A program made the position numbers and the translations under genes. A stretch of 64,000 bases of DNA from Pseudodesulfovibrio sp. zrk46 (GTDB lineage Bacteria; Desulfobacterota; Desulfovibrionia; Desulfovibrionales; Desulfovibrionaceae): contig NZ_CP051216.1 of the NCBI RefSeq assembly GCF_012516435.1, forward strand, positions 1,940,001 through 2,004,000. The letters run 5' to 3'. The notes under the pieces were generated by a model. It saw nothing but the letters and a program-made list of their open reading frames with translations. It did no database searches and was not told where the DNA came from. This document shows positions 26,109-54,902 of this stretch, piece by piece. Numbering within the stretch: the stretch's first letter is position 1; every line of letters begins with the position of its first letter.

Positions 26109-26195
26109 GCCAGGGTGGCGGAATTGGTAGACGCAGCGGACTCAAAATCCGCCGGTAGTGATACTGTAAGGGTTCGAGTCCCTTCCCTGGTACCA
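26109..26195 (+). tRNA. tRNA-Leu (anticodon CAA)
   Basis: An 87-nt gene with encoded CCA. The acceptor arms are GCCAGGG and CCCTGGT, a long variable arm is present as in leucine tRNAs, and the T arm is AGGGTTCGAGTCCCT. The anticodon stem GCGGA/TCCGC encloses CTCAAAA, giving anticodon CAA (26142-26144), which reads UUG. The 3' part, from the anticodon loop on, is duplicated at 54673-54732. It is therefore the integration site of the island to its right, and this gene's 3' half is probably supplied by the island. Confidence 0.96.
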
Positions 26196-30357: not shown

Positions 30358-31473
30358 CTACACCCAAGCAATCGCATACCGTATACTCCGTCCCCCGCCG
30401 CTCTGAACGAGCAGCCCGGCCTCTACGAGTGCCTTTAAATCGCGTGTAGCCGTCGCAGATGACGTCTTGGTCATCCCAATGTACTTCTTGTTCGAAAGTC
30501 CTCCCTCGAAGCCATCAGGCCCAGCATCAAGCAGCTTGTTGAGCGCCTTGCGCTGGCGGTCGTTGATTGGGGCACTGGCATGACGTTTCCAGTACTCCGC
30601 TTTTCTGATTGTGAGTTCTGCAATCTCGCGAGACTTCAGCATGCCAAGTTCCACCGTTTCGAGGAACCAGGCCAGCCACCCCGTGAGGTCGCCTTCACCC
30701 CTCTGAGTCTCTTCCAGGACCGCATAGTACGCTTTTCTAGATGCTGAAATCTGCGAAGACAAACTGTATGCCCTTCGTGACGTCTTTTCGTCTTGCGACA
30801 TAGCCATGTCGGTAATCGCTCTAGCCAGACGTCCATTGCCGTCATCGAAGGGGTGTAGGGTGACAAACCAGAAATGGGCGATACCGGCCCGGATAATACC
30901 GTCCCCGTCTACGGGAGAATTGAACCAGTCGAGGAAGGCTTCCATTTCGTTGGGGAGGGCTTCAGCCGGTGGTGCCTCGTAGTGCAGCTTAGTCTTACCC
31001 GGCCTACCGGAGATAACCTGCATTGATCCGTCTGCGTCTGTCCGCCAGTCGCCAACTGTGATCCGTTGCGTGCCGGTGTAGCCAGTGGGGAAGAGAGCCG
31101 CATGCCATCCATAGAGGCGCTCAGCCGTGAGAGGAGTCTTGTGGTTGACCGTGGCATCAACAAGCACCTCAATCATACCGTCTTCATACTGATTACGGGG
31201 ATGATAGCCTGCATCGTCCAGCCCCAATTTACGTGCCACGGAAGACCGTACTGATTGAGGATGCAATTTGACGCCCTCTATCTCTGAAGTGCGCACGATC
31301 TCGGTTTCCAGAAATAGGGCTTCAGCCTCAAGGGCTAACTTCTCATCAAGTGCTGAGAGCTGGGTTAGCAGTTCCCCCTGCAATTTCCGACATTGGCCTA
31401 GTTGAGGCAGTAAGGCTTCTGCCTTGTATGAAAACGAGGGCCAGGAGTCCCTCTGCCATATGTACGTAGGCAT
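30358..31473 (-). CDS. Fic-domain protein (AMP transferase type) with N-terminal DUF4172
   Basis: A 371-residue Fic protein. The catalytic motif is HPFDDGNGRLAR (207-218), the full HPFx(D/E)GNGRxxR consensus for AMPylation. An N-terminal inhibitory helix motif TSEIEG (62-67) makes it a self-inhibited class II enzyme. The N-terminal 90 residues match the DUF4172 domain (YIWQRDSWPSFSYKAEALLP). The C-terminal region after 310 is a winged helix (NKKYIGMTKTSSATATRDLKALVEAGLL). Such proteins AMPylate a host target or act as autonomous toxins or regulators. No separate antitoxin gene is adjacent. Confidence 0.92.
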   Translation of the reverse strand: MPTYIWQRDSWPSFSYKAEALLPQLGQCRKLQGELLTQLSALDEKLALEAEALFLETEIVRTSEIEGVKLHPQSVRSSVARKLGLDDAGYHPRNQYEDGMIEVLVDATVNHKTPLTAERLYGWHAALFPTGYTGTQRITVGDWRTDADGSMQVISGRPGKTKLHYEAPPAEALPNEMEAFLDWFNSPVDGDGIIRAGIAHFWFVTLHPFDDGNGRLARAITDMAMSQDEKTSRRAYSLSSQISASRKAYYAVLEETQRGEGDLTGWLAWFLETVELGMLKSREIAELTIRKAEYWKRHASAPINDRQRKALNKLLDAGPDGFEGGLSNKKYIGMTKTSSATATRDLKALVEAGLLVQSGGGRSIRYAIAWV

Positions 31474-33131: not shown

Positions 33132-33461
33132 ATGGGAAACGTTTCAGAAAAGGTTGGTGCTCGAATCCGCACCCTGAGGAAACAGGCGGATCTGACCCAA
33201 CAGGAACTCGCTGAGCGGGCGGGTGTAAGTTATAAATACTTGGGCCAGATTGAACGCGGTCAGGTCAACCTGTCAGTTGAGAAAATGGTAGAAATAGCCA
33301 ATGGGCTAAACGCTGCTCCAAGTGAACTGCTTGATGACGGGAAGAAGGGAGCAGGCATCCTTTCCAAAGCACGATTTATTCTTGCCGAACTGTCCGACAA
33401 TGAACTTGCCGTGGCTCTGGATATGCTGGAGTCGTTGAAGAGGCATTCCAGCGGAGACTAG
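33132..33461 (+). CDS. XRE-family transcriptional regulator
   Basis: A 109-residue regulator. The helix-turn-helix at about 8-65 (VGARIRTLRKQADLTQQELAERAGVSYKYLGQIERGQVNLSVEKMVEIANGLN) is a canonical Cro/C1 type. The C-terminal 40 residues form a helical tail that could dimerise. GAGGAGATGACCC precedes the ATG. It is divergent from the small zinc-finger gene and convergent with the DUF6933-like gene (stops overlap by 4 bp). It could control the small-gene operon or the adjacent restriction operon in the manner of a C protein, but this is unproven. Confidence 0.9.
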   Translation: MGNVSEKVGARIRTLRKQADLTQQELAERAGVSYKYLGQIERGQVNLSVEKMVEIANGLNAAPSELLDDGKKGAGILSKARFILAELSDNELAVALDMLESLKRHSSGD

Positions 33462-33982
33462 CCCACCCGATTTATCATCTTGAGTATTTCTCGATCTGGA
33501 AACACAACGCCTTTCAAATCCTTCCCCCTGCACGGAGTCTCGTTCAGAAACGAGGCAACCCAGCGATGCTCCTCTTCAGACTCGGGCAAATGACCCAGTC
33601 GAGACTTGAGCATGAATTCTACCGCATCTTTCATATCGTTCAGCGTCCCAAGCACACTCCGGTTGTGCGTCTTGTGATAGGAAAACCCACCTAGCAGCAG
33701 CTTGGCTTGGGCGATCTGCGCCGGGTTGGCGTTCATGTAGCCCAAGGTCCGCTCGAAGTGATGGATGAAGACATGCTGAAAGTTGGCAAAGTCCTTCTTC
33801 ATCAAGCCGGGGATGAATAGTGTGAATCGCGATTCATCGTTGACCAGCAGCACTGACTTACGGCGGAAGATGCGCAGGATGGTGCCATGCCAGCCGAGGA
33901 AGCCGCGCACGTCGGGAGCTGGAGTAAGCGGCTCTGAGGCCAGCTCCTTGGCGAGCTTTTGGGTGCAGAAGATGTAGGCCAT
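33458..33982 (-). CDS. DUF6933-like protein, 174 aa
   Basis: A 174-residue soluble protein. Its start (MAYIFCTQKLAKELASEP), the central RRKSVLLVNDESRFTLFIPGLMKKDFANF and the RSVLGTLNDMKDAVEFML helix resemble DUF6933 proteins, short single-domain proteins of unknown role often found near defence or mobile genes. The match is from memory of the family layout, so confidence is moderate. It lies about 90 bp downstream of the HNH gene on the same strand. Confidence 0.55.
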   Translation of the reverse strand: MAYIFCTQKLAKELASEPLTPAPDVRGFLGWHGTILRIFRRKSVLLVNDESRFTLFIPGLMKKDFANFQHVFIHHFERTLGYMNANPAQIAQAKLLLGGFSYHKTHNRSVLGTLNDMKDAVEFMLKSRLGHLPESEEEHRWVASFLNETPCRGKDLKGVVFPDREILKMINRVG

Positions 33983-34069: not shown

Positions 34070-35134
34070 TTACAGGACATCGAGAACTCCGACACGTTGG
34101 CATCCTTCAAGAAATGCTTTTTTCAAAAAATTACTGTTAGCAACCGGCGCATTAGCGGTCTGTTGCTGAACGGTGGCAAGGTAGGCGTCCGGTGTGATGC
34201 CGTGAACGTCGCGCAGAATGCGAACTTGCTCCAGCCAGTCCTTTGCATCACCTCCGCAACATTTTGCCTTGTATCGCTCCTCAACGCCGTACACCTCTTT
34301 CCATGTTTCGATTTCCTCATGGACAGCGGCCGGTCCGAAGATGAGTTGAATGTCGGCGGGTGTCAGGCGATCAACATCCGGGGAGTTAAGGTCGATAGTA
34401 ATTTCGATGTCGTGGGCGTGGGGCGTATAGGGATAGAAAGCCTTGCGGCGTCCGGCGGCGTTATGGGCAGGGTCTTTGCTGAGTTTGTATGTACTGTTGC
34501 ACTCATGACAAGCCGGGGCGAGGTTGCAGAAATTTATCGAATTGAAGGGATAGAGCGCCTGGGGTAGATAATGGTCATAAGCGTCGCGTTTAGTGTGATG
34601 TTCCCCCTTGATGTCTCCAAGGCCACAGAAAGGACATTTGCCGGTGGTATTCACCTGTATGAATGTCTGATAGTGCTCATCTATCTGGCCAATCTTTTCA
34701 CGTAGCGCCTTAAGGTCGAGCAGTTGATGAGAATAAAGTCCTTTGAAAAATGAGGCCAGTTGTTCGCTCAGTTCAGGATGGATAGCGGCAATATCGGCAT
34801 AGCGGACGATGTGAATCGCCGGATCATTGGCGCAGACTTTTTCGATGTCGTTGTTGGCCTTGTACCACAGTCTACACTGGGAGATTTGCGCCGGGGTTAG
34901 TGGAGCAAATAGGCCATAAATCCGCTCCACATGACCGTAAAAGAAATCCCCGCCCTTCGTGTCGCCGTAGAAAAAACACTCCATCAGTTCTTTGAGTTCG
35001 GCATTACCATCGCAAAGTTCAAATCTAAAGCCGCCATTGCCAGGAGCTTTGCACCACACCTCAAAAAAAATGAAGTCTATGAATTCCTGCATCTTCTCCA
35101 TTGCATGCGGGACATAGGTGTAGGCGAACAGCAT
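34070..35134 (-). CDS. HNH endonuclease associated with the restriction operon
   Basis: A 354-residue protein with a central HNH nuclease. KCPFCG (C167, C170) is followed by RDAYDHYLPQALYPFNSINFCNLAPACHECNSTYK, giving the catalytic D187-H188, N204 and the second cysteine pair C209/C212 with N213. The N-terminal 160 residues are helical and probably bind the partner. Its start shares one base with the stop of the ATPase gene, so the two are co-translated. An ATPase plus HNH pair recalls Septu (PtuA/PtuB) and the retron-associated HNH, here fused to the end of a type I restriction operon. Confidence 0.85.
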   Translation of the reverse strand: MLFAYTYVPHAMEKMQEFIDFIFFEVWCKAPGNGGFRFELCDGNAELKELMECFFYGDTKGGDFFYGHVERIYGLFAPLTPAQISQCRLWYKANNDIEKVCANDPAIHIVRYADIAAIHPELSEQLASFFKGLYSHQLLDLKALREKIGQIDEHYQTFIQVNTTGKCPFCGLGDIKGEHHTKRDAYDHYLPQALYPFNSINFCNLAPACHECNSTYKLSKDPAHNAAGRRKAFYPYTPHAHDIEITIDLNSPDVDRLTPADIQLIFGPAAVHEEIETWKEVYGVEERYKAKCCGGDAKDWLEQVRILRDVHGITPDAYLATVQQQTANAPVANSNFLKKAFLEGCQRVGVLDVL

Positions 35135-36915
35135 CAGTCCTGTTTCTCCATGCTGTCGAGAATAGTCTTGATGAGCAGGACTTTTTCCACTGAGTCGCCG
35201 AGCTGGCGGTTAATCTCGGCAATAACCTGCTCTTTGTCCTCGCCCTGTTCAAAACGGTGGCGGAGGTCTTCCAGCATCGACTGTGCATGACCGCCGATGG
35301 TCTCATGTTTGCCGAAGGTGGCCATGGTGATCTTGTTGATTGATGCTCCTAGAGTATTGTAGTCAGGGTTGAGGACCGATACCTCTCCATCGGCCTTTTT
35401 GAACACCAGCACTTTTTCCGGTCGGCTGTCGGAAATCAGAAACGGAGTGTGGGTGGTGACCAGCATCTCCTGACCGTCGCTGCCGTTGAAACTCTGGAGC
35501 AGACGGGTGACGAAGTTCGCACGCCAATCTGGGTTGAAATGGGTCTCTGGTTCGTCTAGCAGGAACAGGCTCTGGGTGTTTTTAAACAGCATGCAGAGAC
35601 CAAGGGTGTGCAGCAGTTGGTGTTCGCCGTCCGAAAAGCTTTTCAGGAGGACAGGCTCTGGCACATCAGTCTTTGTCACCCAGAAATTTTTGAAGCGCAT
35701 AATGCGCTGATCTGAAGCCAGGATAGGGACAGTCTCACTGGCATAGAGGCTGTCTGACTGGTAAAGATCTCTTTTGAGATCGTCGCTTGCAGAGAACAGA
35801 TTGAGGGTTAACAGAACCTGAAAGGCTTGGAACAGAGAGATTGGCGAGCCATTGACCTCGAAATCGAAATTTTCGCTGAAGGCCTGCCTAGTGGCGTCGT
35901 TGACCCGGTAATCGAGATAGAGGGTGTCGCTGGCTTCGTCAAGATACCAACAGGTAGCACAGCGCATCAGGCGTGGGACGATTTTATCGCTTTTCTTATC
36001 ACCATCGAGCAGGTGTACTAGATTGACGCGATACCGCTTGGTCTGGCGTTCGTCTTCGATCGCGCTCAGGGCCGGGTGGTTATTGACGATATCCTCGATG
36101 GTTTCCCGTTTACTCTCATCCTGACTGCCGAAGGCGGAGATCAGGCTTTCCTCCACTTCGATGCTACGCCGAATGATGATGCGGAACTCCATGAGTTCCT
36201 CGATTTTCACATCATTGCGGAAAGGCGAAATCGCATCGGTGTCCTGAAACAGTAGATTGCAAAGCAGGATCGCCTGGCTGAACCCGCTGTCGAGATAAAC
36301 CAGCCGAGATTCCGGGCGACCAGGATAGGGAAGCTGCTGTTTTAGCGCCTGCCCGTATTCATCGAACTGGACAAAGCGCATCTTGAAAAACGGAAGGCTG
36401 AGGATTTCGTTTTCACCGGAGGAGTAGCCCAGAACGAACTCCGGTAGCAATTGGCGGGCCAGGGTCTGTCCGATGGTAAGCTCCACTTCTCCTTCCCGTT
36501 CTTCATGATTGAGAAGGAACCACTTGGGAGATTCGCCAGGCTGTTTGGCGATGCGCACATGGGCCTGACCATCGTGGCCTGTAGTCGTCAAGGCTTCCTT
36601 GGGTCGAATCAGATATTCAATCTCGAAGCCGTCCGGGGTGGCTATTTCACTGCGGAAGCCACCAGAATTGGCCTCTTCCTCAAAACGGAAACTGTCCGGC
36701 AGGTTCTCCAGATAGATGCACTCCAAGTGATAGAAAATCGCCGCCAGCACCTCCAGTAGGTTCGACTTGCCGCTGCCGTTGGGCCCAGCACAGACAAAAG
36801 GGGCGAAGTCCTCTTCATCCTGCAAGTCCCAGTCACTGCGAAACTGATACTCGAACCCGGCTTGCAGACTGCGAAACCCCTTTGGGTCGGTAATCTTCAG
36901 ACGGATGAGCTTCAC
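35134..36915 (-). CDS. Restriction-system-associated SMC/ABC-type ATPase
   Basis: A 593-residue AAA_21/ABC-type ATPase. Walker A is CAGPNGSGKSNLLE (about 42-55), the ABC signature appears as FSDGEHQLL near 430, Walker B is SLFLLDEPETHFNP near 452, and the switch histidine lies in LVTTHTPFLISD. The middle 300 residues have no coiled-coil hinge of SMC length, so it resembles PtuA/OLD-like ATPases. The ATG overlaps the hsdS stop (ATGA). It corresponds to the family annotated as restriction-system-associated AAA ATPase. It probably senses or amplifies restriction events and drives the HNH nuclease encoded next. Confidence 0.88.
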   Translation of the reverse strand: MKLIRLKITDPKGFRSLQAGFEYQFRSDWDLQDEEDFAPFVCAGPNGSGKSNLLEVLAAIFYHLECIYLENLPDSFRFEEEANSGGFRSEIATPDGFEIEYLIRPKEALTTTGHDGQAHVRIAKQPGESPKWFLLNHEEREGEVELTIGQTLARQLLPEFVLGYSSGENEILSLPFFKMRFVQFDEYGQALKQQLPYPGRPESRLVYLDSGFSQAILLCNLLFQDTDAISPFRNDVKIEELMEFRIIIRRSIEVEESLISAFGSQDESKRETIEDIVNNHPALSAIEDERQTKRYRVNLVHLLDGDKKSDKIVPRLMRCATCWYLDEASDTLYLDYRVNDATRQAFSENFDFEVNGSPISLFQAFQVLLTLNLFSASDDLKRDLYQSDSLYASETVPILASDQRIMRFKNFWVTKTDVPEPVLLKSFSDGEHQLLHTLGLCMLFKNTQSLFLLDEPETHFNPDWRANFVTRLLQSFNGSDGQEMLVTTHTPFLISDSRPEKVLVFKKADGEVSVLNPDYNTLGASINKITMATFGKHETIGGHAQSMLEDLRHRFEQGEDKEQVIAEINRQLGDSVEKVLLIKTILDSMEKQD

Positions 36916-38495
36916 AGGTTTGAGCCTTTGACGGGAATGATTTGCACCGTGTTAGATTCGTCATCAAACGTTTGGAGCAAAGATCCATTTTTCAGCATTT
37001 CGAATATGATGGACTTCACGTGATCGTAGTCGGGAACCGACAGTTCGTCTTCCCCATCTATCCCCAAATCTTCAAGCACCCCCTCATTACTCAACTCAAG
37101 AAGATTGCCATGAGTCCTCACCATAAATTCTGAAATTGAAACAGATTCCCCTACTTTTGCTGCCTCGATATACGTGGTCAGCCACTCTTTGAGGGCGTGC
37201 TTTCGGTGTTTGAATCCTGTTAAGACTTGCGGGAATTCCATATCTGGAGTCGTGAGGATTTGAGATTCCCGACGAGATGAATCTTCAACGGCTTGCTCAT
37301 GCTCCTCTGCTGTTGGCAGCTGCACACGCGACAAATCTAGCTCGCCCTTGAACGCCATCTGGCTCAGCGCGCCATAGAGGTATTCCAGATCAGTCAGGCA
37401 TTGCTGGTAGCGGGATTTGAGGGCATCGATTTTGTTGATGATGACGGCGAATTGGTTTTGTAGCTCGACTGGTGGCTTGATCATCGTGATCTTTTGGAAG
37501 TCGCCTTTGGTCAAAATTTTCTTCATACCCTTTGAAGCATGACTTTGGATGTAGGCTTTGGAAATCTTGAACAAGACATATAAAAAGAGTGGATTAACGT
37601 CCTTCTTCGGTTGAATGGCGTTGATTTGCTGGTTAAACGCAACTGTTCTGTCTGTTAGTGCCGCCCGACCGATGGACTCAATGCTTCCGGCTATACAAGC
37701 CACCATAAGAGCGCCCTTCGTTACTGTTCGCGCTTTGGTTGCCCCAGTTTTTGAAAGATACTCTTCGGCCTGACTTATATAAACAGAGTCAGCCGAAATA
37801 TTGACCGTCTTTATCCATTCAATGTGTTGGCTCGAATAGTTGGCCGGGTCTTTTCTTGGGGGAGTATTTCCCGTCGAAATCTTGCCAAAATGGTTCAATT
37901 CCGGTTTATCCCACCCCTTCTCATTCCGCACAGGGTCACCGAACATCTCGAGAAAGACGCTTTTGAGTAGGTCGTCGAGTTGTTGCAGGTGTTGTTTGCG
38001 CCGAGCGATCAGCCCTTCCACCTTGCCGAGCAGATGGGCAATGCGCTTTTGGTCGTTAAGCGGTGGGAGGGGAATTTTTATGCTCTCAAGCCCCTTAAAC
38101 TTCAGCGAGTCTCTGACCGCTCCTTCGGTGTTCGCGCGAATTTGGGCAATGCCCCAGTCACTCTTCATGTAACGGAGGAGGTAGTCCGCGAATAACTCTG
38201 AGTCTGTTTCAAAAACGATATAGAGAGGGCTTACGAGAACTTTGTCGGCATTTTTTAGATAATCTATTGAACCAACATTGATGCGTGAAGGGTTATAAGC
38301 GAACTGTCCTTTAAGGACCACTTTATAGTTCGAAATATCCTTGCTGAAGACTTTTTTGCTGAAATAATCAGTCGAAAGAGTGAAGCCCTCAGAATTGGTT
38401 ACTGAAAATACTTTCGTGCCAGATTCACCTTTATTGCGTTTACTGAACTGCCGAACATGCTCACCTAAGTTGGCTACGAGGTGTTTTGTTTTCAT
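36912..38495 (-). CDS. hsdS: Type I restriction enzyme specificity subunit
   Basis: A 527-residue HsdS. The first target-recognition domain (about 1-145) ends in IKIPLPPLNDQKRIAHLLGKVEGLIARRKQHLQQLDDLLKSVFLEMFGDP, the central conserved helix. The second domain (about 190-345) ends in IKPPVELQNQFAVIINKIDALKSRYQQCLTDLEYLYGALSQMAFKGELDLS. The usual protein stops near residue 395. Here about 130 more residues follow (RESQILTTPDMEFPQVL to the C-terminus), with no similarity I know. The first domain seems short at its N-terminus. ATG overlaps the hsdM stop by ATGA. Confidence 0.92.
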   Translation of the reverse strand: MKTKHLVANLGEHVRQFSKRNKGESGTKVFSVTNSEGFTLSTDYFSKKVFSKDISNYKVVLKGQFAYNPSRINVGSIDYLKNADKVLVSPLYIVFETDSELFADYLLRYMKSDWGIAQIRANTEGAVRDSLKFKGLESIKIPLPPLNDQKRIAHLLGKVEGLIARRKQHLQQLDDLLKSVFLEMFGDPVRNEKGWDKPELNHFGKISTGNTPPRKDPANYSSQHIEWIKTVNISADSVYISQAEEYLSKTGATKARTVTKGALMVACIAGSIESIGRAALTDRTVAFNQQINAIQPKKDVNPLFLYVLFKISKAYIQSHASKGMKKILTKGDFQKITMIKPPVELQNQFAVIINKIDALKSRYQQCLTDLEYLYGALSQMAFKGELDLSRVQLPTAEEHEQAVEDSSRRESQILTTPDMEFPQVLTGFKHRKHALKEWLTTYIEAAKVGESVSISEFMVRTHGNLLELSNEGVLEDLGIDGEDELSVPDYDHVKSIIFEMLKNGSLLQTFDDESNTVQIIPVKGSNL

Positions 38496-40156
38496 CCAAC
38501 TATTCCCTGCAACTCAAGTAGTTCGCGCACAATTCCACTTTGAACCTTGACCAATTCGTCGTCTCCCACCTCGCCGACTTCTTCCTTCAGCAGCCGCTCA
38601 AGAATGATTCCCGGCTCTTCATATTCCACCTCTTCAAACACATCCTCCTTGTACCGCGACAGTGAAAGGTCATAGCTGTTTTTTTCGTCTGCGATTTCAG
38701 CTTGTGGCACCATAAACCATTTCGCGGTGCGATCTGTATCCTTCTCCTCATTTCGCTCGTGAAACTGGGTGACGATATCAAGCAAATCCCCATACCCTTC
38801 CTGCTTGCTGCGCTTGTCGTCCAGGGAGTAGCCGTCCGCCTGCATCTCGTAGAACCAGACATTCTCCGTGGCTGCTTGCGTCACCTTATCCTTCGGTCCC
38901 CATACCTTGGTGAAGAGCAGAATGGCGGTGCTGACCCCGGCATAGGGCTTGAACACTCCGCTGGGCATGGTGATAACAGCCTTAAGGTCGCAACGGTTCA
39001 CCAACATCTCACGCAGGGCCTTGAAGGCCTTGCCCGAGCCGAACAACACTCCTTGGGGGACAATGACGCAGGCAGTGCCGCCTTTTTTCAGCAGGCGGTA
39101 GATATTCTCGACAAAGAGCAGCTCGGTCTTGGTGGTGCCCACCGTGAGGTTCTCGTTGATGTCGCCCTTGTCGATGCTACCGGTAAAGGGTGGGTTGGCC
39201 ATGACAATGTCGTATTCGGCTTCCTCGCTGTAGCTCTTGGAGAGGGTGTCCTTGTAGTCAATGTTCGGCTCGTCGATGCCGTGCATCATCAGGTTCATCA
39301 ACCCCAAGCGCACCATGGTGCTGTCGATGTCGTAACCAAAGAGGGAGGCTTGCAAAATTGCCTGAGCCTTTTCGGTGAGCCCTGCTGCGACAGAGGTGCG
39401 GACAAAACCATCTTCATCAGGCTGCAGGTCTTTGGCCCCGGCCTTTTTCGCCAACTCCGTGACGATATACTGGTAGGCCCCGAGCAGAAAGCCTCCGGAG
39501 CCGCAAGCAGGGTCGGCGATGCGATGGCCCAGTTGCGGACGCACTAAATCGGCCATCAGCTTGATGATGTGGCGTGGTGTACGGAACTGGCCGTTCTTGC
39601 CTGCCGTGGCGATCTCGGAAAGAAGCATTTCGTAGACATCGCCCTGGATGTCCTGAAATGCCTGCCCCTTCTCTTGCGAGTCATGCTCCATAATTTCGAA
39701 GATCTCGTCGATGGTCTTCACCGCCTCCACCAGCAGGGCAGGCTTGGGGATGATGAAGACAGCATTTTTCATGTGGCGGGTGAAGTTGGACGTTGCCCCG
39801 TTCATATCCTTGAGGAAGGGAAAGACCCTAGTCTGGACGTGCTGGAGCATCTCCTCGGCCTGCATATGCTTGAACTCGCGCCAGCGCAGTGTGTATCTGT
39901 CGACAGCGTGATATTCTTCGTCTTCTTTGCCTCGGAATTCAGGAGGAATCCACAGCCCATCAAATTTCGACGTATAGGGCTCACCGGTCCACTCGGCATC
40001 GGCCTGTTTCTTCTGGTCCAACTCGTCGAGCCGCTTCATGAACAGCAGATAGGTAATCTGTTCTATAGCAGTGAGCGGGTTGGAAATGCCACCAGCCCAG
40101 AACTTGTTCCAGAGCTGGCCGATCTTGCTTTTGAGTTCGGGATTATTTTGAAGCAC
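38492..40156 (-). CDS. hsdM: Type I restriction enzyme N6-adenine methyltransferase
   Basis: A 554-residue HsdM. The N-terminal helical domain (LKSKIGQLWNKFWAGGISNPLTAIEQITYLLFMKRLDE) is followed by the catalytic domain with the SAM-binding motif ADPACGSGGFLLGAYQY (motif I, 214-230) and MANPPF (motif IV, 319-324). A trimer with HsdS methylates adenine in the recognition site. It starts 30 bp after the hsdR stop and overlaps hsdS, as expected for one operon. All catalytic residues are present, so it should be active. Confidence 0.96.
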   Translation of the reverse strand: MLQNNPELKSKIGQLWNKFWAGGISNPLTAIEQITYLLFMKRLDELDQKKQADAEWTGEPYTSKFDGLWIPPEFRGKEDEEYHAVDRYTLRWREFKHMQAEEMLQHVQTRVFPFLKDMNGATSNFTRHMKNAVFIIPKPALLVEAVKTIDEIFEIMEHDSQEKGQAFQDIQGDVYEMLLSEIATAGKNGQFRTPRHIIKLMADLVRPQLGHRIADPACGSGGFLLGAYQYIVTELAKKAGAKDLQPDEDGFVRTSVAAGLTEKAQAILQASLFGYDIDSTMVRLGLMNLMMHGIDEPNIDYKDTLSKSYSEEAEYDIVMANPPFTGSIDKGDINENLTVGTTKTELLFVENIYRLLKKGGTACVIVPQGVLFGSGKAFKALREMLVNRCDLKAVITMPSGVFKPYAGVSTAILLFTKVWGPKDKVTQAATENVWFYEMQADGYSLDDKRSKQEGYGDLLDIVTQFHERNEEKDTDRTAKWFMVPQAEIADEKNSYDLSLSRYKEDVFEEVEYEEPGIILERLLKEEVGEVGDDELVKVQSGIVRELLELQGIVG

Positions 40157-40186
40157 TTAATGATTCCTTGTGTGTTGTCGCTCTTC

Positions 40187-42997
40187 CTAGGCCGCCAAGC
40201 GTTCGGTGAGTTGCAGTATCTCGCTAATTTCCGCAGGGCTGAAGACACCACGAATACCTTGCGGATGGATCACCGTAAAGGGAGCATTGATGAGGTCTCT
40301 TTTTTCGACCTTCTCTCGTTCGATGATAAACCCCTTGAGCAAGTTCAGGAATTCCAATTGACGGCTGGAAAGGTTGCTGTGCTGCCCGATGAACTGATCA
40401 AAAGCCTCGCTAACCGTCTCGGGGAAGCTTCTGAGAACCTCTATCCCAAGAATGTGGCGGATGAACTGAATGAAGTGCGCCTTGCGATTCTTGTAGACCT
40501 GGCGCAGGAGGTCTTCGGTAATGTGCGGATGTTCGGCATGGAGCATGTCTGCCAAATCGGCAGCCTCTATCGGTGAAACATCTTCTCCATTTTTGATTTT
40601 TTGCAATATGGGATTGTGTGCAGTCAGTTCGGAAATCATCGCCTCGACCATTTCGCGGTAGCGGCTGATGCTGACCGATTCGTGCTGCGGGCCAAACTCG
40701 ACCCGTTCTTTGTTGTGTAACACGTCGGTTAGGTCGAGGTGTACCGGGCCCGGGCCAGTCTGCAACTCCCGGAACTTCATCAACGGGCCGAGGCGGGTGT
40801 TCAACTCGTCAAGAGCATCTTCCAGTGCGTTGACGTCACTTACGGACCAATAATGGTTTGTCTGGGCAGCGCGAATCAACTGTCCTTCTGCTTTGACGAA
40901 GTTGACGGAAAGCGGCAGTTCGCTGATCTGCTCGACAAGCCCCTCCTTGAGAGTTTCAGCCTTTTCCTTTTCGTCGCTGAGCCTGGCGAGTGAATACTCT
41001 AGAACATCCCGCTCAAAGCGCATGGCCTTGAAGTCGGCCTCGGAAACGGTGCGGAAGAGCGGCTTGATCTCGGAGCGCAGGAATTCCAATCTCTGGTGGC
41101 TTAGGGTTACCCAGAAGTTTCCTTCATACACCTTGTCCAGAGAGGTCGCCGCCTCCTTGATGACGACTGAATTTTGCGGCAACTGACTGATCTGAAATCG
41201 CAGCTTGGTTATTTCGCGTTTGGCGATCTGCTCCTGCGCCAGGTCGAGGGCTTTTTCAATCTTATCAATACGCAACCCGACAAGCCGCACTGGCAGGGGC
41301 AGTTGGGGCTTGAGCTCCTTGCCCTTTGGCTGCAATTTGAAATATTCGAAATTGTCCCAGCAGTCGAGAATCAGGAACACATCCTTTTCCAGACACCAAG
41401 GCTTGGGCTTGCTGGTTTCCAGGAGACGGGTTCCACGCCCGATCATCTGCCAGAACTTGGTGTAGGAGTACACCGGCTTGGCAAAGACAAGATTGACTAT
41501 TTCGCGAACGTCGATACCGGTGTCCAACATGTCGACGCTGATGGCGACCCGAGGCATGTCGCTGTTGGTGAACTGATCAAGCAGTCCGCCCTTGCCGTAG
41601 ACACGGGGGTCATCGGAAACCAGAACCTTGGCCAACTCGCCTTTATACTGGGGGTAAAGCTTGTCGAAAATCTCTTCCATCCGTCGGGCATGGGCCTTGG
41701 AAGAGCAAAAGAAAATGGTCTTGCCGGGCAGCACACCGTTGTGGTCTTTGATGCACTCCTCCATGAATTCCCTGACGATAAGGGTGTTGGTCCCTTTGTT
41801 GATCACCTGCTTTTCCAGCTGTGATCCCTCGAAGTTGATTTCTTCGACTTCCTTGCCCTCCAGCAGCAGCTTTTTCTGATCCTCGAGCGAGATTGTGCGC
41901 TTACTTATGCCTTCCATCTGGAAACGGGTCTGGATTTTCATTACCTGAAAGCTGCTCAGATAGGGCGGTACGCTGTTAACTGCCTCTTCAAAAGTGTAGG
42001 CAAAAGTGGGAAGACCATCTTCGCAATGGAAGAGCTGAAAGGTGTTGTGGTCAATGATGTCTGTGGGCGTGGCCGTCAGGCCCAGGGTGATCGTCTTGAA
42101 GAAGTCCAACACCTCTTTATAGGTGTTGTAAATGGAACGGTGACTTTCATCTACCACTATAAAATCAAAGAAGTGCGGTGATAGGTTCTGCGACTCGTCC
42201 CGAATAATGTTGAGCATTGTTGGGTAGGTCGAAATATAGATACGACGGTCTTTGGCGAGTAGCTTTTCGCCAACGTTGGGCCAGCGAGGCTCGTGAGGCA
42301 GGTGTTCCTTAAAGGCGGCCAATGCTTGCTCACGCAAAGCAATACGGTCAACTAGGAACAGCACCTTTTCAGCGTGTCCGGCACGCATGAGGGCATCAAT
42401 CGTCGCGATGCAGGTTCGAGTCTTGCCGGTACCGGTAGCCATCACCAGCAGGAAGTCACGTTTTTTCTGTTCGATGCCTTCGAGAACGGCACGTATGGCC
42501 CGGATTTGATAATCTCGACCAGCAATGGCGGTATTGATGAGTTCTTGGGTCAAAGGCTTGCGATTGCGACGGATGTACTGAAACCGCTCCAAGTCATCTC
42601 GCGTTGGGAAGCCTACAACCTTGCGGGGCGGATAGTTGTCCAGGTCCCAAAAGTAGATTTCGTGACCATTGGCATAGAAACAAAACGACAGCTCGCCACC
42701 CAGCTGCCTCTGGATGTTATAGCAATATTGTTTAGCCTGCTCTCGACCTAGCGCTGCATCTTTGCTTGATTTTTTTGCCTCGACAACGGCTAAAGGCTTT
42801 CGGTCTTTTCCGAGCAGAACATAGTCGCTGAATTGATGGCCTTCGTATTGAGTGCGCGGCTTTTCAACCCCGTCAGGCAAATCTACCAGAATGTCGAATT
42901 CCTCAACAACTTGAGTTGGGTCATTGACATTCCAACCAGCAAGTTCAAGCTGTTTATCTATTAGTTCTGCACGTGTTTGGGCTTCAGATCTACTCAT
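40187..42997 (-). CDS. hsdR: Type I restriction enzyme endonuclease/translocase subunit
   Basis: A 936-residue HsdR of the EcoEI type. The nuclease core is near the N-terminus: D58 in FSDYVLLGKDRKPLAVVEAKKSS with E73-A-K75. The SF2 motor has Walker A MATGTGKTRT (186-195), DESH (283-286), LGLTATP and the C-terminal helicase motifs MLDTGIDVREI and QMIGRGTR. The last 250 residues form the EcoEI_R_C domain that contacts the methylase. It leads the operon hsdR-hsdM-hsdS-ATPase-HNH. All key residues are intact. Confidence 0.95.
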   Translation of the reverse strand: MSRSEAQTRAELIDKQLELAGWNVNDPTQVVEEFDILVDLPDGVEKPRTQYEGHQFSDYVLLGKDRKPLAVVEAKKSSKDAALGREQAKQYCYNIQRQLGGELSFCFYANGHEIYFWDLDNYPPRKVVGFPTRDDLERFQYIRRNRKPLTQELINTAIAGRDYQIRAIRAVLEGIEQKKRDFLLVMATGTGKTRTCIATIDALMRAGHAEKVLFLVDRIALREQALAAFKEHLPHEPRWPNVGEKLLAKDRRIYISTYPTMLNIIRDESQNLSPHFFDFIVVDESHRSIYNTYKEVLDFFKTITLGLTATPTDIIDHNTFQLFHCEDGLPTFAYTFEEAVNSVPPYLSSFQVMKIQTRFQMEGISKRTISLEDQKKLLLEGKEVEEINFEGSQLEKQVINKGTNTLIVREFMEECIKDHNGVLPGKTIFFCSSKAHARRMEEIFDKLYPQYKGELAKVLVSDDPRVYGKGGLLDQFTNSDMPRVAISVDMLDTGIDVREIVNLVFAKPVYSYTKFWQMIGRGTRLLETSKPKPWCLEKDVFLILDCWDNFEYFKLQPKGKELKPQLPLPVRLVGLRIDKIEKALDLAQEQIAKREITKLRFQISQLPQNSVVIKEAATSLDKVYEGNFWVTLSHQRLEFLRSEIKPLFRTVSEADFKAMRFERDVLEYSLARLSDEKEKAETLKEGLVEQISELPLSVNFVKAEGQLIRAAQTNHYWSVSDVNALEDALDELNTRLGPLMKFRELQTGPGPVHLDLTDVLHNKERVEFGPQHESVSISRYREMVEAMISELTAHNPILQKIKNGEDVSPIEAADLADMLHAEHPHITEDLLRQVYKNRKAHFIQFIRHILGIEVLRSFPETVSEAFDQFIGQHSNLSSRQLEFLNLLKGFIIEREKVEKRDLINAPFTVIHPQGIRGVFSPAEISEILQLTERLAA

Positions 42998-43200: not shown

Positions 43201-43953
43201 CTAGCTTGGTTCAGACATTGAGGCTTCCAATTGGGAATAAGAAATACCAAATGTAGATATCGAGAAGGTTTCCATCAAGCTGATTGCAACCTGAGCAAGC
43301 TCAAGCCACAAAGGAATTGAAGCCTCTTGCTCCTCTTTGGGGCTACTAGACACAACCAAAGCGTAGATCGAAAGGACAACCATTCCTTTGAAATATATTA
43401 CAGCAAACTCTTGCACCTCGAAATATTCAGGCTTTTCAGATTCGTCTAGTTCCATTATTTCTTTTCGAACTTCATCAAATGACCTCACTGGGTAAATTAT
43501 CAAAATAAGGCCAACAACCGCTGACATAAGCTGTTTCTTGGCTTCAACATCAAGCGCATTTATGCATTGAACAACCGAGCTATTCATAAACCGCGGATCA
43601 TGAGCATATTTATTTCGAATAAAGGATAAAGATCGAATAAAATCGTATCCTAGCTGCGGTATGACCTTAGCTTTCAGTAAGGCATCCAGCCTAACTTTCA
43701 TGCCTGAATTTGGGAAATTCTTAATCGTTTTGTCTACTCCATTTACCTGAGCCAAACTCCCAATAAAATGCTCAATCAAGCTATGAGCTTTAAGCGTAAA
43801 ACGGTATTCATCTTCTTCAAGCAATTCTAATAATTCAGAAATCGACAAATCTACGCGTTCCAATTGACGTGAGATCATCATTTTATAGTTCTCAAACAAC
43901 CCTTCAATGGATGTTTGCATTTGCTTCTCGCAATACGCTTCGGTCAAGACCAT
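43201..43953 (-). CDS. HEPN-like protein upstream of hsdR
   Basis: A 250-residue AT-rich gene product. FIRSLSFIRNKYAHDPRF contains R113-N-K-Y-A-H118, the R-x4-H motif of HEPN ribonucleases. It lies in a helical setting after LKAHSLIEHFIGSLAQV, as in the MAE_28990/abortive-infection HEPN families. A hydrophobic stretch near 140-155 (LMSAVVGLILIIYP) and another near 195 suggest membrane association. It is in the same direction as hsdR, 203 bp upstream, so it may be part of the restriction locus, for example as a guard RNase. No antitoxin nucleotidyltransferase is next to it. Confidence 0.55.
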   Translation of the reverse strand: MVLTEAYCEKQMQTSIEGLFENYKMMISRQLERVDLSISELLELLEEDEYRFTLKAHSLIEHFIGSLAQVNGVDKTIKNFPNSGMKVRLDALLKAKVIPQLGYDFIRSLSFIRNKYAHDPRFMNSSVVQCINALDVEAKKQLMSAVVGLILIIYPVRSFDEVRKEIMELDESEKPEYFEVQEFAVIYFKGMVVLSIYALVVSSSPKEEQEASIPLWLELAQVAISLMETFSISTFGISYSQLEASMSEPS

Positions 43954-44181
43954 TGTCAGCTCCTGTTGTTTTTTTACCCGATATCATAATTGCGAAGCCG
44001 TTGTCCCAATCGGAATACGCCTCTCTCAAATCACGTTAGCTCCCATCAAAGATTATTATGGTTTTAAGATTTTGTATGAAATCTTAATAATAGGTTAGTG
44101 TGCTGCTCATTCTTTTTCAAACATATATTACTCCTTTGACTGCCAGGACTTTTTTAATTTCCGGCGACAAGACACAATATG

Positions 44182-44214
44182 CCCCATGGTCGCGAGACGC
44201 GACCGTGGGGTTTT
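44182..44214 (+). terminator. Terminator-like hairpin in the leader of the recombination operon
   Basis: CCCCATGGTCGCG and CGCGACCGTGGGG form a near-perfect 13-bp stem around AGA (one mismatch), followed by TTTTC. It lies 20 bp before the ribosome site of the ERF gene. Because it precedes the first gene of the operon, it looks like an attenuator or antitermination target. The rest of 43954-44234 holds no gene I can see. Confidence 0.72.
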
Positions 44215-44234
44215 CTTTATTCAAGGAGGTAGCC

Positions 44235-44915
44235 ATGGAATCACAGATGAGTTCCCCTGAAATTACGGAATTGGCCGAGGCAATGATCCAGGTGCAGCAA
44301 GCGCTTTCTCCTGCACTAAAGGACGCGGAGAACACTTTTACAAACAGCCGGTACGCAACACTTCATTCGGTCATGAATGCGTGCCGGGATGCTTTGATAA
44401 AGCACGGCGTCTGGCTGACCCAGTACCCGGTATCAGTTGAGGCTAATCAACTCGGCCTTGTCACCAAGATTGTCCATGCGGAGACAGGGCAGTGGCAGGC
44501 TTCATTGTTGACCATGCCGTTGCCAAAGAACGATCCGCAAGGGTATGGCTCGGCGATGACCTATGCGCGTAGGTACGGCTTGTCCGCATTGATCGGGATC
44601 GTGACAGAAAACGATGATGATGGAGAATTGGCTTCTCAGCAGGGCTGGCAGCACAACACTGGTTTTCAGCCCCGTAACCACAGGGAGAACCCAGCTGCTC
44701 CACAGCAGAAATCGGTTCCTGAGGGTACTGGTACTGACGCGGTAAATCTGCCTCGTCTTGATGGGGTGCAATACAGACACGGCACAGCCAATGACGGCAA
44801 GCAGTGCGTACTCGCAACTGGCGACACCCATTCCAAGAAGGCGTTCCTGCGCAAGGCCGGTTTCCGATGGGATGGCACCCGCAAGGTCTGGTGGAGGTAT
44901 GCAGATGCCGCATGA
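44235..44915 (+). CDS. ERF-family single-strand annealing protein
   Basis: A 226-residue ERF-type recombinase. The core is LAEAMIQVQQALSPALKDAENTFTNSRYATLHSVMNACRDALIKHGVWLTQYP, then NDPQGYGSAMTYARRYGLSALIGIVTENDDDGE, the family signature. ERF proteins coat and anneal complementary single strands for phage-style recombination. The C-terminal 60 residues (KKAFLRKAGFRWDGTRKVWWR) form a small extra domain. AAGGAGGTAGCC gives the start. It overlaps the next nuclease gene by 11 bp, the usual annealase/exonuclease coupling. Confidence 0.9.
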   Translation: MESQMSSPEITELAEAMIQVQQALSPALKDAENTFTNSRYATLHSVMNACRDALIKHGVWLTQYPVSVEANQLGLVTKIVHAETGQWQASLLTMPLPKNDPQGYGSAMTYARRYGLSALIGIVTENDDDGELASQQGWQHNTGFQPRNHRENPAAPQQKSVPEGTGTDAVNLPRLDGVQYRHGTANDGKQCVLATGDTHSKKAFLRKAGFRWDGTRKVWWRYADAA

Positions 44916-46122
44916 AAATCTCAAGGCACAAGGACTGCTTCGCCTCCTGACTCAAGGCCTCCTGGCTCACGCTGAGCAGAAGACAGTCTGTGAGCTTGGC
45001 GACCGTAGCCAGTACATCGGCATGTCTGACATCGGCAAAGGCATGGAGTGCATGCGGGCCGCAGTGGCGAGCAAACTCGGTCTGTCCGCCACTCCCGCCG
45101 CATCTGCCGTGGCTGGGCTTGATCCTGACGCTCTCGCTCGTACTCTTAGTCGGCAGATCATTCTGCAGCGAGGGCATTGGCAGGAACATGGCATAGAAAA
45201 AGCTCTTACCGCTACCGGTGTGAAGTTGTTGCCACAGCTTGAAATCTGCATTGAGCATAGCGGTGTACCCATAAAGGCACACCTGGACTTCACCCTGGTA
45301 TGGGGTGGCCGTCGTCCTGCTGTCCGGATTTTGGAACTCAAAAGCAATGAGCGCATTCCGGATTCGCTCTATGCTTCATACGAGGCGCAACTCTATGGCC
45401 AAATGGGACTGCTTTACGCCTGCTGGGGCGAACCTTGTTTTTCCGTCCCTGAAACGGAGATGGAATTGGTCACGTTTCCGCAGGCCGTGCAGGCCATGTT
45501 CGGCGTGACGCTTCCCGATTCCCCTAACACCGTGGACATCGAGGCGTGGGTGCTTTCCATCTCTCTGTCTGAGGTCAGACCATTCGGTCCGTATCTCGCT
45601 GACGAGATGATGCTGGCAACGTGCCTGCAGACAGCGGTTGCAATCTGGCGGGCGGCAGAAGACATACGAGCAGGAAACCTGGAGTTGAACGACCTCTACT
45701 ACTGCCGTGGCTTTCACCCTTTGTGCGATTGGTGCGACGTCAACGCAGACTGCCCGAAGTTTCGGGACATAAGTATCCCAGCAGATTCTGCTTGCGGCCT
45801 GGAGTTGGAAGAGCTTGCTATCCTCAAGGAGCGAAAGACTGCCCTGGAGGGACGTATTGCTGAGGCAGAAGAGCGCATCAAGCAAACGTATCGTCTGATT
45901 GGAGGGCAGGATTGGATTTCGACGGAAGATCATCGTTTTCGGATTGCGACCGTGGCTGGTCGAAGAACTCTCGATCGCTCCCAGGTCGTGGACACCTTAA
46001 CTTCATTGATTGGTGATGAACTCAAAGTCGAGGCAGCTTTGGAGCAATGCGAAAAGGCTGGCAGGTCTCATGAACGGCTATACGTCAGCAAGATCAATAA
46101 GCCGCTGAAGTCGGCGGCATAG
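44905..46122 (+). CDS. Cas4/RecB-like PD-(D/E)xK exonuclease
   Basis: A 405-residue nuclease. The catalytic set is GHWQEHGIEKAL (H91), HLDFTLVW (D128) and VRILELKSNE (E144-x-K146), the RecB/Cas4 arrangement. A C-terminal cysteine group (CRGFHPLCDWCDVNADCP, about 265-282), together with C49, could hold a [4Fe-4S] cluster as in Cas4/AddB. The last 90 residues are a coiled-coil-like tail. I choose the second ATG because GGAGGT is best spaced for it. Together with the ERF protein it would resect and anneal DNA ends during island recombination. Confidence 0.82.
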   Translation: MPHENLKAQGLLRLLTQGLLAHAEQKTVCELGDRSQYIGMSDIGKGMECMRAAVASKLGLSATPAASAVAGLDPDALARTLSRQIILQRGHWQEHGIEKALTATGVKLLPQLEICIEHSGVPIKAHLDFTLVWGGRRPAVRILELKSNERIPDSLYASYEAQLYGQMGLLYACWGEPCFSVPETEMELVTFPQAVQAMFGVTLPDSPNTVDIEAWVLSISLSEVRPFGPYLADEMMLATCLQTAVAIWRAAEDIRAGNLELNDLYYCRGFHPLCDWCDVNADCPKFRDISIPADSACGLELEELAILKERKTALEGRIAEAEERIKQTYRLIGGQDWISTEDHRFRIATVAGRRTLDRSQVVDTLTSLIGDELKVEAALEQCEKAGRSHERLYVSKINKPLKSAA

Positions 46123-46144
46123 CCAACACAAACACGATTGGCAG

Positions 46145-46175
46145 AAAGGCGCACCTCCTCCCGGGGGTGCGCCTT
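46145..46175 (+). terminator. Terminator-like hairpin inside the recombination operon
   Basis: AAAGGCGCACC and GGGTGCGCCTTTT form a long stem around TCCTCCCGG with TTTT at the end. It lies between the nuclease gene and the MoxR-like ATPase gene and probably lowers expression of the downstream genes or ends a shorter transcript. Confidence 0.78.
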
Positions 46176-46198
46176 TTCTGTTTTCAAAGGAGATAAGT

Positions 46199-47188
46199 AT
46201 GAGTGAAATTCTCAAAGAGTTGCAGACACTGCAGCCTGCCGAACATGATGCCGGTGAAGTCTTCAGCGGCAAGAAGTCCAAGCGTACTGTGCGCGGCTTT
46301 GCATCGGCATCCTCATTCACCCCTGACCTTAACCCCGAGTACCTGTTCCACGATTCCAGCCGTGATGCCGTTGTCTGGTTCATGGATTCATCCGATCCGC
46401 TGTACGTCTTTGGCCCCGCAGGAAGTGGAAAGACAAGTCTCATCAAACAGCTTTCTGCCAAGCTCAATTACCCTGTGTTCGATATCACCGGTCATGGGCG
46501 ATTGGAGTTCCCGGATATGGTCGGCCATCTGACTGTTGAAGATTCAAATATGACGTTTCAATACGGCCCCCTTGCGCTCGCCATGAAGTTCGGTGGGTTG
46601 TTCCTGCTGAATGAAATCGACCTGCTCGATCCGGCAACGGCAGCAGGGCTGAACGGTATTCTCGACGGGGACCCATTGTGCATTCCTGAGAACGGTGGCG
46701 AGGTCATCAAGCCCCATCAGTTGTTCCGGTTTGCGGCAACAGCCAATACTAACGGCGGGACGGACGAAACTGGTCTGTACCAAGGGACATTAAGGCAAAA
46801 TCTAGCCTTCATGGACCGCTTCTGGCTCTGCGAGATCGGCTACCCCAGCCCCAAGGCTGAAAGGGAGTTGCTGCACCGCAAGGCTCCCGGTTTGCCGAAG
46901 GATATTCGCACGAAGATGGTCGAGTTTGCCAATGAGGTGCGCAAACTGTTCATGGGCGAAGCTGACGGAAACTTCCGCGACACCATTGAGGTGACGTTCT
47001 CGACTCGCACTCTTATTCGCTGGGCGGATCTGACCGTTCGATTTCAACCGCTAGCCCGACAGGGCATCCAACCCGTGACTTATGCGCTTGATCGCGCTCT
47101 TGCCTATCGCGCCACACCGGAAACCCGGACGGTGTTGCACGAGCTCGCGCAACGCATCTTCCCGCAACAGAAGGAGAATGAATCATGA
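46199..47188 (+). CDS. MoxR/CobS-like AAA+ ATPase
   Basis: A 329-residue AAA+ protein. Walker A is VFGPAGSGKTSLIKQL (70-85), Walker B is GGLFLLNEIDLLDPATAAGLNGILDG (NEID in place of DEID, common in MoxR/CobS), and sensor 1 is FRFAATANTNGGTDETGLYQGT, as in CobS. It has a short N-terminal arm and a C-terminal lid. MoxR/CobS ATPases act with VWA-domain partners to remodel or metallate other proteins; here the partner is encoded two genes downstream. TCAAAGGAGATAAGT precedes the ATG. Confidence 0.9.
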   Translation: MSEILKELQTLQPAEHDAGEVFSGKKSKRTVRGFASASSFTPDLNPEYLFHDSSRDAVVWFMDSSDPLYVFGPAGSGKTSLIKQLSAKLNYPVFDITGHGRLEFPDMVGHLTVEDSNMTFQYGPLALAMKFGGLFLLNEIDLLDPATAAGLNGILDGDPLCIPENGGEVIKPHQLFRFAATANTNGGTDETGLYQGTLRQNLAFMDRFWLCEIGYPSPKAERELLHRKAPGLPKDIRTKMVEFANEVRKLFMGEADGNFRDTIEVTFSTRTLIRWADLTVRFQPLARQGIQPVTYALDRALAYRATPETRTVLHELAQRIFPQQKENES

Positions 47189-48147: not shown

Positions 48148-48152
48148 TCGTC

Positions 48153-54508: not shown

Positions 54509-54525
54509 TTCGACCTCCTGATGTG

Positions 54526-54558
54526 ACCACCAAACGACCACCAAATTACCACCAAATT
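54526..54558 (+). repeat. Right arm-type repeats, 3 x 11 bp
   Basis: Three consecutive copies of ACCACCAAATT (the first ends in CG) lie between the integrase start and the right attachment site, in the same orientation as the two copies at the left end. They are likely integrase arm-binding sites and may also repress int transcription. Confidence 0.7.
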
Positions 54559-54672
54559 GTGCGGTAAGCAAGGTGGTCTCCAGTGACGTCAAATGAAGGG
54601 TGACTTGTTTAATTGTCTGAAATAGTAGTCTAAAAATGATTTCTAGTGAATTCCAGTGATGCCCTAATCATC

Positions 54673-54788: not shown

Positions 54789-54902
54789 GCTTTTTGTGTA
54801 CCTATGTAGTCTAGTGTGATCCGTTGACATCCTGGAGACGGTGTGAGTAATGGTGTGGGTAACTGGAATAGTATTAACACTGGTTACTCAACGAGGTGCT
54901 AT

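Follow-up and report, generated by a model that had tools for sequence, protein, structure and literature searches.

A 64,000-nucleotide stretch of the Pseudodesulfovibrio sp. zrk46 genome (contig NZ_CP051216.1, positions 1,940,001 to 2,004,000; hereafter the window) contains a type I restriction-modification (RM) operon in which hsdR, hsdM and hsdS are followed by genes for an ABC-type ATPase and a predicted HNH nuclease. Its specificity subunit, HsdS, has an extra C-terminal part of about 130 residues that is predicted to form a winged helix. That this tail accompanies the ATPase-HNH pair suggests that the nuclease is under the control of the restriction enzyme, beyond mere neighbourhood. 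In related loci the constant unit is hsdM-hsdS-ATPase-HNH, of which hsdR is not a part. The best reading of these observations is one in which HsdM2S, by means of the tail, both holds and triggers the effector, either as a guardian in the style of PrrC and PARIS or as a second restriction effector.

The five genes are all on the minus strand, from position 42997 down to 34070, with spacings of +30, -4, -4 and -1 nucleotides; the coordinates of the open reading frames (ORFs) and their start contexts agree with the order, strand, position and spacings given in an original prediction made from the DNA sequence. The hsdR gene (40187-42997) encodes a type I restriction subunit of 936 amino acids, with HSDR_N, ResIII and EcoEI_R_C domains and the motifs VVEAK, TGTGKT and DESH. 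The hsdM gene (38492-40156, GTG start) encodes an N6-adenine methyltransferase of 554 residues, with HsdM_N and N6_Mtase domains and intact NPPF and DPACGSG motifs. The hsdS product (36912-38495) is a specificity subunit of 527 residues with two Methylase_S stretches, of which residues 1-390 have the canonical HsdS fold. By profiles and motif reading, the domains and motifs of HsdR, HsdM and HsdS thus occur together in one operon, as in a type I RM system, the activity of which is predicted. The ATPase gene (35134-36915, GTG start) encodes a 593-residue ABC-type protein of the TIGR04435 or PtuA-like kind, with a Pfam AAA_21 domain. Its Walker A motif is GPNGSGKS (residues 44-51, positions 36763-36786), and an ABC signature-like SDGEHQ (428-433) and the Walker B motif LLDEP (452-456) are encoded at 35548-35634. 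The last gene (34070-35134) encodes the 354-residue predicted HNH nuclease, which has a putatively PtuB-like fold and an HNH/zinc core (C167xxC170, D187, H188, C209xxC212, N213 and K217) at 34484-34636.

The HsdS tail (residues 396-527, positions 36915-37310) begins after the canonical F-x-G-E-L end and finishes with the pattern D-Y-D-x-x-K...F-E-x-L-x-x-G-x-L-x-Q-x-F-D. In an AlphaFold2 model of HsdS (mean predicted local distance difference test score, pLDDT, 76; predicted template modelling score, pTM, 0.58) the canonical body is followed by a low-confidence linker, residues 397-418, and a helical domain with a terminal beta hairpin. Known HsdS structures align to the model within residues 1-390 only (Z 21-27 for the first eight matches), and the predicted winged-helix domain (about residues 426-527) aligns best with LmrR, a winged-helix transcriptional regulator (Z 7.0 over 81 residues, root mean square deviation (rmsd) 2.7). 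Taken at face value, this alignment would make the tail a DNA-binding autoregulator of the operon and leave the ATPase and HNH proteins to repair or control RM complexes without acting as a nuclease. We consider such regulation very improbable: winged helices often make protein contacts, small domains commonly align at Z scores below 8, the HNH core has been kept intact with hardly any variation, and a tail-less sister operon (described below) retains hsdR, hsdM and hsdS.

The tail tends to occur together with the ATPase. A tail profile recognised 13 of 18 ATPase-linked HsdS proteins strongly, two weakly and three not at all, and found no tail in 16 comparison HsdS. Leave-one-out profiles recovered all 11 members at 30-75 bits, with 1.7 bits for the best of the 16 comparison proteins; two members outside the tail model, those of loci L055 (66 bits) and L103 (75 bits), are independent positives but close relatives of members in it. 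ATPase-linked HsdS proteins are also longer (463-570 residues in 15 loci, versus 364-464 in nine HsdS without the pair; Mann-Whitney p = 4e-5, uncorrected for relatedness). This test used longest-ORF lengths and left out the HsdS of Kovacikia, which is broken in two, and that of genome G184, which is decayed; the HsdS proteins from seven distant ATPase loci (L042, L050, L057, L058, L062, L066 and L092) were score controls and stood outside the length test. The HsdS proteins with weak or unrecognised tails (L033, L035, L037, L038 and L041) are nonetheless 463-560 residues long. Among 348 genomes of the class, in which the total number of HsdS was not counted, strong tail scores were confined to the two ATPase-linked HsdS, and four weak matches were to non-HsdS proteins (SurA-like by our own reading, with one unclear).

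Two types of tail can be distinguished. With the window tail as a tblastn query, the sole match in 72,556 plasmid records was in Kovacikia, beside its ATPase. A piece of the Sphingobium HsdS gave many plasmid HsdS matches; the tail as a general feature of HsdS was nevertheless rejected, as the first approximately 55 residues of that piece are the canonical end, and the rest matched itself and one chance-looking sequence among 40 of the 54 records listed. Profiles trained on one clade placed most tails of the other clade above controls, at low scores (3-19 bits; E-value 0.13 or less), and on this sequence evidence the two types are likely homologous.

A natural control is provided by locus L089, an IMG/VR contig. 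Its HsdR is 73% identical to that of the window and is followed by HsdM and then by an HsdS of 402 residues, which terminates at 'AFKGKLDLSKVPVEEVNQ', just past the canonical end and at the point where the tail of the window protein starts. No ATPase or HNH match was present in the 7.2 kb downstream; this is a sister operon without ATPase-HNH, and its HsdS is tail-less. In nine genomes of the host family, another ten HsdR loci, some of them cut before hsdM, contained no HNH match and no ATPase match above 33 bits. The tail, which does not figure in the original prediction, is likely the physical link between HsdS and the pair.

The window ATPase is a member of TIGR04435, scoring 828 bits against a curated cut-off of 300 over model positions 1-568 (825 bits in the genome search). 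This NCBIfam entry (restrict_AAA_1, a hypothetical equivalog) is described as 'restriction system-associated AAA family ATPase', so a link of this ATPase to restriction systems has already been named; E. coli and plasmid relatives are annotated with the same family name. The entry is a name only and is silent on the HNH partner, the HsdS tail and the optional hsdR. Against PADLOC profiles the ATPase scores 165 bits with PtuA1 and 55 bits with AriA, and it reaches 39 bits with the retron PtuA equivalog, for which the cut-off is 500. An ATPase profile run against the Protein Data Bank (PDB) placed 9n69 ('AAA family ATPase') nearest, followed by PtuA of retron I-A, AriA (8ux9) and PtuA (8ee4). 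The PtuA1 score and this profile search identify it as an ATPase of the PtuA type found in Septu. Phage records contained no match to it.

The HNH protein has no Pfam match; its assignment rests on PADLOC profiles (51 bits with PDC-M01B and, lower, 25 bits with PtuB), a conserved core motif and the predicted fold. The core reads CPFC...DHYLP...CHECN..K, and C167, C170, D187, H188, C209, C212, N213 and K217 are invariant across 10 aligned HNH proteins, including that of the window; in a separate set of six proteins, C209 is absent from the Sphingobium protein. The predicted structure (pLDDT 84) resembles PtuB of retron Ec78 (Z 8.3, with an rmsd of 5.0 over 188 residues), well ahead of an unrelated second match at Z 3.3. 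A profile of the HNH protein gave three chance matches only among PDB sequences. The likeness to a Septu-style PtuA/PtuB pair put forward in the original prediction is supported, for PtuA by sequence and, less securely, for PtuB by the modelled fold.

The arrangement recurs widely. At least 19 loci, including the window, contain an ATPase of the TIGR04435 type. The others are the E. coli types L031 and L103; loci from Kovacikia (L032), Priestia (L033), Sphingobium (L034), Hymenobacter (L035), Ramlibacter (L036), a Flavobacteriaceae metagenome-assembled genome (L037), Pedobacter (L038), Stutzerimonas (L039), Niabella (L040, frame-broken throughout) and Alistipes (L041); the IMG/VR contigs L044, L045, L046 and L047; and the genome loci L055 (decayed) and L056 (with a broken ATPase frame). 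Three of the 19 are thus decayed or frame-broken. The named hosts span four phyla: Pseudomonadota, Cyanobacteriota, Bacillota and Bacteroidota. A contig scan of genomes, with at least eight loci from 590 candidate stretches, makes this survey a sample and not a census. In three genome sets of the window's own lineage, the genomes searched by profile, TIGR04435 exceeded its cut-off in 2 of 395, 2 of 348 and 1 of 199 genomes. An hsdS gene lies upstream of the ATPase in all 19 loci (it is broken in L032, L040 and L055), hsdM lies upstream of hsdS in all 18 readable loci (L037 begins at hsdS), and the HNH gene lies downstream of the ATPase in 18 of 19, having been lost from L055. Four nucleotides are shared by hsdS and the ATPase gene in 12 of the 16 loci with unbroken hsdS (L039 taken at its aligned start). 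The recurrence of an identical order in 19 loci, together with this overlap, puts the arrangement beyond chance.

The components also appear to have evolved together. Pairwise identity of the ATPase correlates with that of the HNH protein (r = 0.92, 15 loci), hsdM (0.79, 14 loci), hsdR (0.81, eight loci) and hsdS (0.77, 14 loci), with a permutation p of 0.0002 in each case, fitting long joint descent. Comparison with G667, a genome of the same genus, adds exchange to this picture. Identity is approximately 92-100% through the upstream flank, hsdR and the greater part of hsdM, and drops within the 3' end of hsdM; at the protein level, it is 99% for HsdR, 92% for HsdM, 34% for HsdS and 64% for HNH. 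The G667 ATPase is a mosaic relative to that of the window, with 57% identity over residues 1-497 and 82% over the last 93. Judged by these alignments, recombination has taken place at the operon. With a mosaic ATPase and differing downstream flanks, they do not establish a clean swap of an hsdS-ATPase-HNH cassette.

Several loci have related but different layouts. The Pantoea plasmid locus L092 (15186-20186) is a distant parallel, with hsdR, hsdM, hsdS, AAA and HNH genes in which HsdS is even longer (635 residues; AAA protein, 668; HNH protein, 365). Loci L066 (5969-11476) and L042 (6190-11402) have the order hsdR-hsdM-hsdS-ATPase-HNH with an HsdS of normal length, and about 1.8-1.9 kb separates hsdS from the ATPase gene; in L066 this interval contains a 629-residue ORF, possibly providing the tail function as a separate protein. 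In Sphingobium L034, genes for an 8xMP membrane protein and a GIY-YIG nuclease (8710-10427) lie between hsdM and hsdS.

Across the 18 readable loci, hsdR is intact before hsdM in 10 and broken in two (L047 and L055). In the other six (L031, L033, L035, L039, L040 and L041) an HsdR profile did not find it in the locus DNA, a copy elsewhere in these genomes being possible. Its absence rests mainly on this profile, on annotation (L031, L033 and L035) and on the larger ORFs upstream in L033, L039 and L041, which were scanned with Pfam. Searches by tblastn with two HsdR queries found no remnant in the six loci; they also missed the L047 fragments that the profile detects, and so add little for divergent loci. 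A gene for a Schlafen group 3 helicase adjoins hsdM in two of these six loci (L033, 6129-8012; L041, 5206-6978), which belong to different phyla.

The hsdR-less form occurs in E. coli, where the hsdM-hsdS-ATPase-HNH block occurs at 99% identity or more in 85 of 5426 genomes, always on the chromosome. The window ATPase is matched by 96 E. coli genomes, which presumably include these 85. In seven carriers inspected, no hsdR is annotated upstream, and the gene straight before hsdM is an ordinary chromosomal one, namely yeeJ, cbl, ldtA or that of an MFS transporter. Downstream, the same seven have an ArdC gene (cut by an insertion sequence (IS) in one) and then a MobC/type IV secretion module. ArdC proteins are anti-restriction factors; genes of this family lie directly 3' of the hsdR-less block in L031 (15797-16744), L106 and L108-L111. 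In 2 of 60 records listed for block carriers, hsdM is annotated in two pieces. Two E. coli loci outside the block set, L103 and L105, have the full order hsdR-hsdM-hsdS-ATPase-HNH. The NPPF motif of hsdM is kept in all 15 proteins read. Between the E. coli types with and without hsdR, identity is 79% for HsdM, 75% for the ATPase and 62% for HNH, and falls to 38% for HsdS.

With hsdR not found or broken in some loci, HsdR cutting cannot be the universal trigger. The suggestion in the original prediction that restriction activity or its failure could trigger the nuclease is therefore not supported as a general rule, as hsdM and a long hsdS are kept where hsdR is not. The sensed object should instead be HsdM2S or its DNA.

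These same loci give substance to a different proposal, in which the pair would be a second restriction effector. The tailed HsdM2S would recognise unmethylated incoming sites and recruit or activate ATPase-HNH, which would take the place of HsdR in hsdR-less loci, with HsdMS methylation shielding the host. The retention of hsdS and of an intact NPPF motif where hsdR is broken or not found favours it, as does the divergence of HsdS between E. coli types far beyond that of its neighbours, which is expected if sequence specificity still matters; however, ordinary type I systems swap HsdS target domains too, so little can be concluded about the pair from this diversity. Moreover, if a mobile hsdR-less module killed on unmethylated DNA, every new host would be in danger as soon as it arrived. 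Precedents for the target point both ways: Septu PtuAB of E. coli ATCC25922 reportedly acts on nicked DNA (PMC11555353), whereas the PtuAB proteins of Septu EcB88 and of retron-Eco7 are reported to act on tRNA. On balance, we regard a second restriction effector as possible but doubtful.

We give some preference, at not quite an even chance, to a guardian mechanism in which HsdM2S with its winged-helix tail is both the sensor and the leash of a PtuAB-like ATPase-HNH effector and guards against disturbance of the methyltransferase core. In the resting cell, the ATPase-HNH complex would be kept silent on, or beside, HsdM2S. Phage infection would disturb the core, most likely through an anti-restriction protein of the Ocr, ArdA or Stp type that occupies or dismantles HsdM2S. 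The ATPase would then free the HNH nuclease, which would cut an essential nucleic acid (tRNA or DNA) and abort the infection. HsdR, where present, would form a separate first layer of restriction. Tool results provide the order of the genes, the tail and its association with the pair, the resemblance to PtuA and PtuB, and the optional hsdR. The other steps are proposed by analogy with PrrC, PARIS and retron Ec78: that the tail docks on the ATPase, that the complex is latent, what triggers it and what the nuclease cuts.

Several observations weigh against this guardian mechanism. The tail is only weakly recognised in L037 and L041, and not recognisable by sequence in the divergent Priestia, Hymenobacter and Pedobacter loci (L033, L035 and L038). 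The plasmid search with the window tail missed the Sphingobium tail; its reach is therefore short, and it is blind to the other tail type. The modelled match to LmrR, at a low Z of 7.0, may reflect just a common arrangement. The PtuB resemblance of the HNH model was seen by the second structure aligner alone: Foldseek gave no PDB match at E of 1 or below, its 13 matches all having E of 1.7 or more and being unrelated. A methylation-licensed effector would account for the conserved methylation motifs and the diverse HsdS specificities of hsdR-less loci at least as well as a guard. Finally, in E. coli L104 the ATPase and HNH genes lie behind an IS3 element with hsdR, hsdM and hsdS gone, the sole case without hsdM-hsdS; it is apparently a deletion remnant.

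The existence of L104 also bears on the idea that the ATPase and HNH proteins are an independent Septu-like system, linked to the hsd genes only by a common promoter and common mobility, with a tail that serves HsdMS. Defence genes often cluster, and in another E. coli Septu PtuAB is reported to work with its two genes (PMC13096335). We nevertheless find such independence unlikely: several phyla share the same gene order, the pair is accompanied by the tail, the sister operon L089 is tail-less, and, L104 apart, no ATPase-HNH of this family was found without hsdM-hsdS in the collections searched. The stand-alone, two-gene form of Septu is likewise not what is seen, as the ATPase gene lies behind hsdM-hsdS in all 18 readable loci, that of the window among them, with L104 again the exception. 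The original prediction held that the coupling would be incidental if the pair were common without hsd genes. It looks more than incidental; pairs without hsd genes were not common in the collections searched, with L104 as the one exception and two weak HNH matches in Streptomyces as possible others.

PtuAB is known alone, as Septu, and with a reverse transcriptase and msDNA, as retron I-A. The window proteins share with Septu and retron Ec78 (Eco7) the pairing of an ATPase with an HNH protein, the PtuA motifs and, as far as the model shows, a PtuB-like fold, but they are embedded with hsdM-hsdS. A Septu is reported to cleave tRNA-Tyr (PMC13096335), and retron-Eco7 PtuAB to deplete it (PMC11555353). 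PrrC and PARIS have been described as RM guardians that sense restriction failure (PMC12707154). As in EcoprrI with PrrC, a type I RM operon here includes an ABC-type ATPase as part of a candidate latent toxin; PrrC, however, is a single protein among the hsd genes, whereas the present system has two proteins after hsdS and an optional hsdR. Membership of the PrrC/RloC group was rejected, as ATPase and nuclease are two ORFs with a separate HNH protein, and as AAA_13, which we take to be the Pfam model of PrrC, is not among the Pfam matches at E 0.1. PARIS uses a related ABC-type ATPase, AriA, to guard restriction; the effector in the window is an HNH protein and not the Toprim protein AriB, and the pair is tied to an hsd operon, so the operon is not a PARIS system. 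MADS (methylation-associated defence system) also combines a methyltransferase, a specificity subunit and an ATPase; it was rejected on scores of 124, 36 and 36 bits for MAD2, MAD3 and MAD5, against cut-offs of 720, 420 and 400. A further parallel is found in the dyads of an OLD-type ABC ATPase and an HNH 'backup effector' that lie beside BREX and RM-like systems. According to a comparative study of 2026, the pairing of OLD-ABC ATPases with such nucleases in RM-like systems had been reported earlier (PMC12839542). The available part of that source does not describe the HsdS tail, the hsdR-less hsdM-hsdS-ATPase-HNH unit or the TIGR04435 family (PMC12839542).

A text search of the literature collection used found no paper with 'TIGR04435' or 'restriction system-associated', and a topic search (PtuAB/Septu, hsdMS/HNH, HsdS winged helix, PARIS) found none on the present arrangement among the matches listed. 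Krishnan et al. 2020 is reportedly the source cited for OLD-ABC dyads in RM-like systems, and overlap with the present arrangement is possible. The association of such ATPases with restriction is thus already known; new here are the tail that accompanies the pair and the hsdR-less unit, which are the parts worth testing.

An integrated element of about 28.6 kb (26109-54732), situated at a tRNA-Leu(CAA) gene (26109-26195), carries the operon as cargo. The 60-nucleotide 3' end of this tRNA gene is imperfectly repeated at 54673-54732 (53 of 60 bases; next best place, 29 of 60). A tyrosine integrase gene (53294-54592, minus strand) adjoins the far repeat copy, and a second (54843-56117), just outside the repeat, suggests a tandem island. 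Upstream of hsdR, a 250-residue protein (43201-43953) is 95% identical in G667 and otherwise has no tblastn match in the loci compared; its RNKYAH motif resembles those of HEPN RNases. Immediately downstream of the HNH gene lies a DUF6933 gene (33458-33982), the PADLOC candidate PDC-S63, with no tblastn match in the other loci compared. The element also contains a gene for a SoFic-like protein of the Fic family (30358-31473); weak Fic relatives occur near the related operons L036 and Pantoea L092. Genes for an ERF recombinase, a CbbQ-type AAA protein, a DUF3150 protein and a CobT-like VWA protein lie on the plus strand at 44100-49724, a region with a GC content of approximately 0.54-0.56, versus 0.40-0.54 across the remaining element.

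If the tail couples HsdM2S to a PtuAB-like nuclease, it would offer a genetically simple, testable route from restriction failure or foreign DNA to a suicide effector. Orphan hsdMS genes without hsdR, such as those of the block in 85 E. coli genomes, would then be explained as working immune systems and not remnants. More broadly, and as a conjecture that we would sooner doubt than rely on, PtuAB-type effectors may be plug-in killers wired to differing sensors (no known one in Septu, a reverse transcriptase with msDNA in type I-A retrons and, here, a type I methyltransferase with a dedicated HsdS docking tail), and the hsdR-less hsdM-hsdS-ATPase-HNH unit may be a self-contained form of methylation-based immunity in which the pair replaces HsdR.

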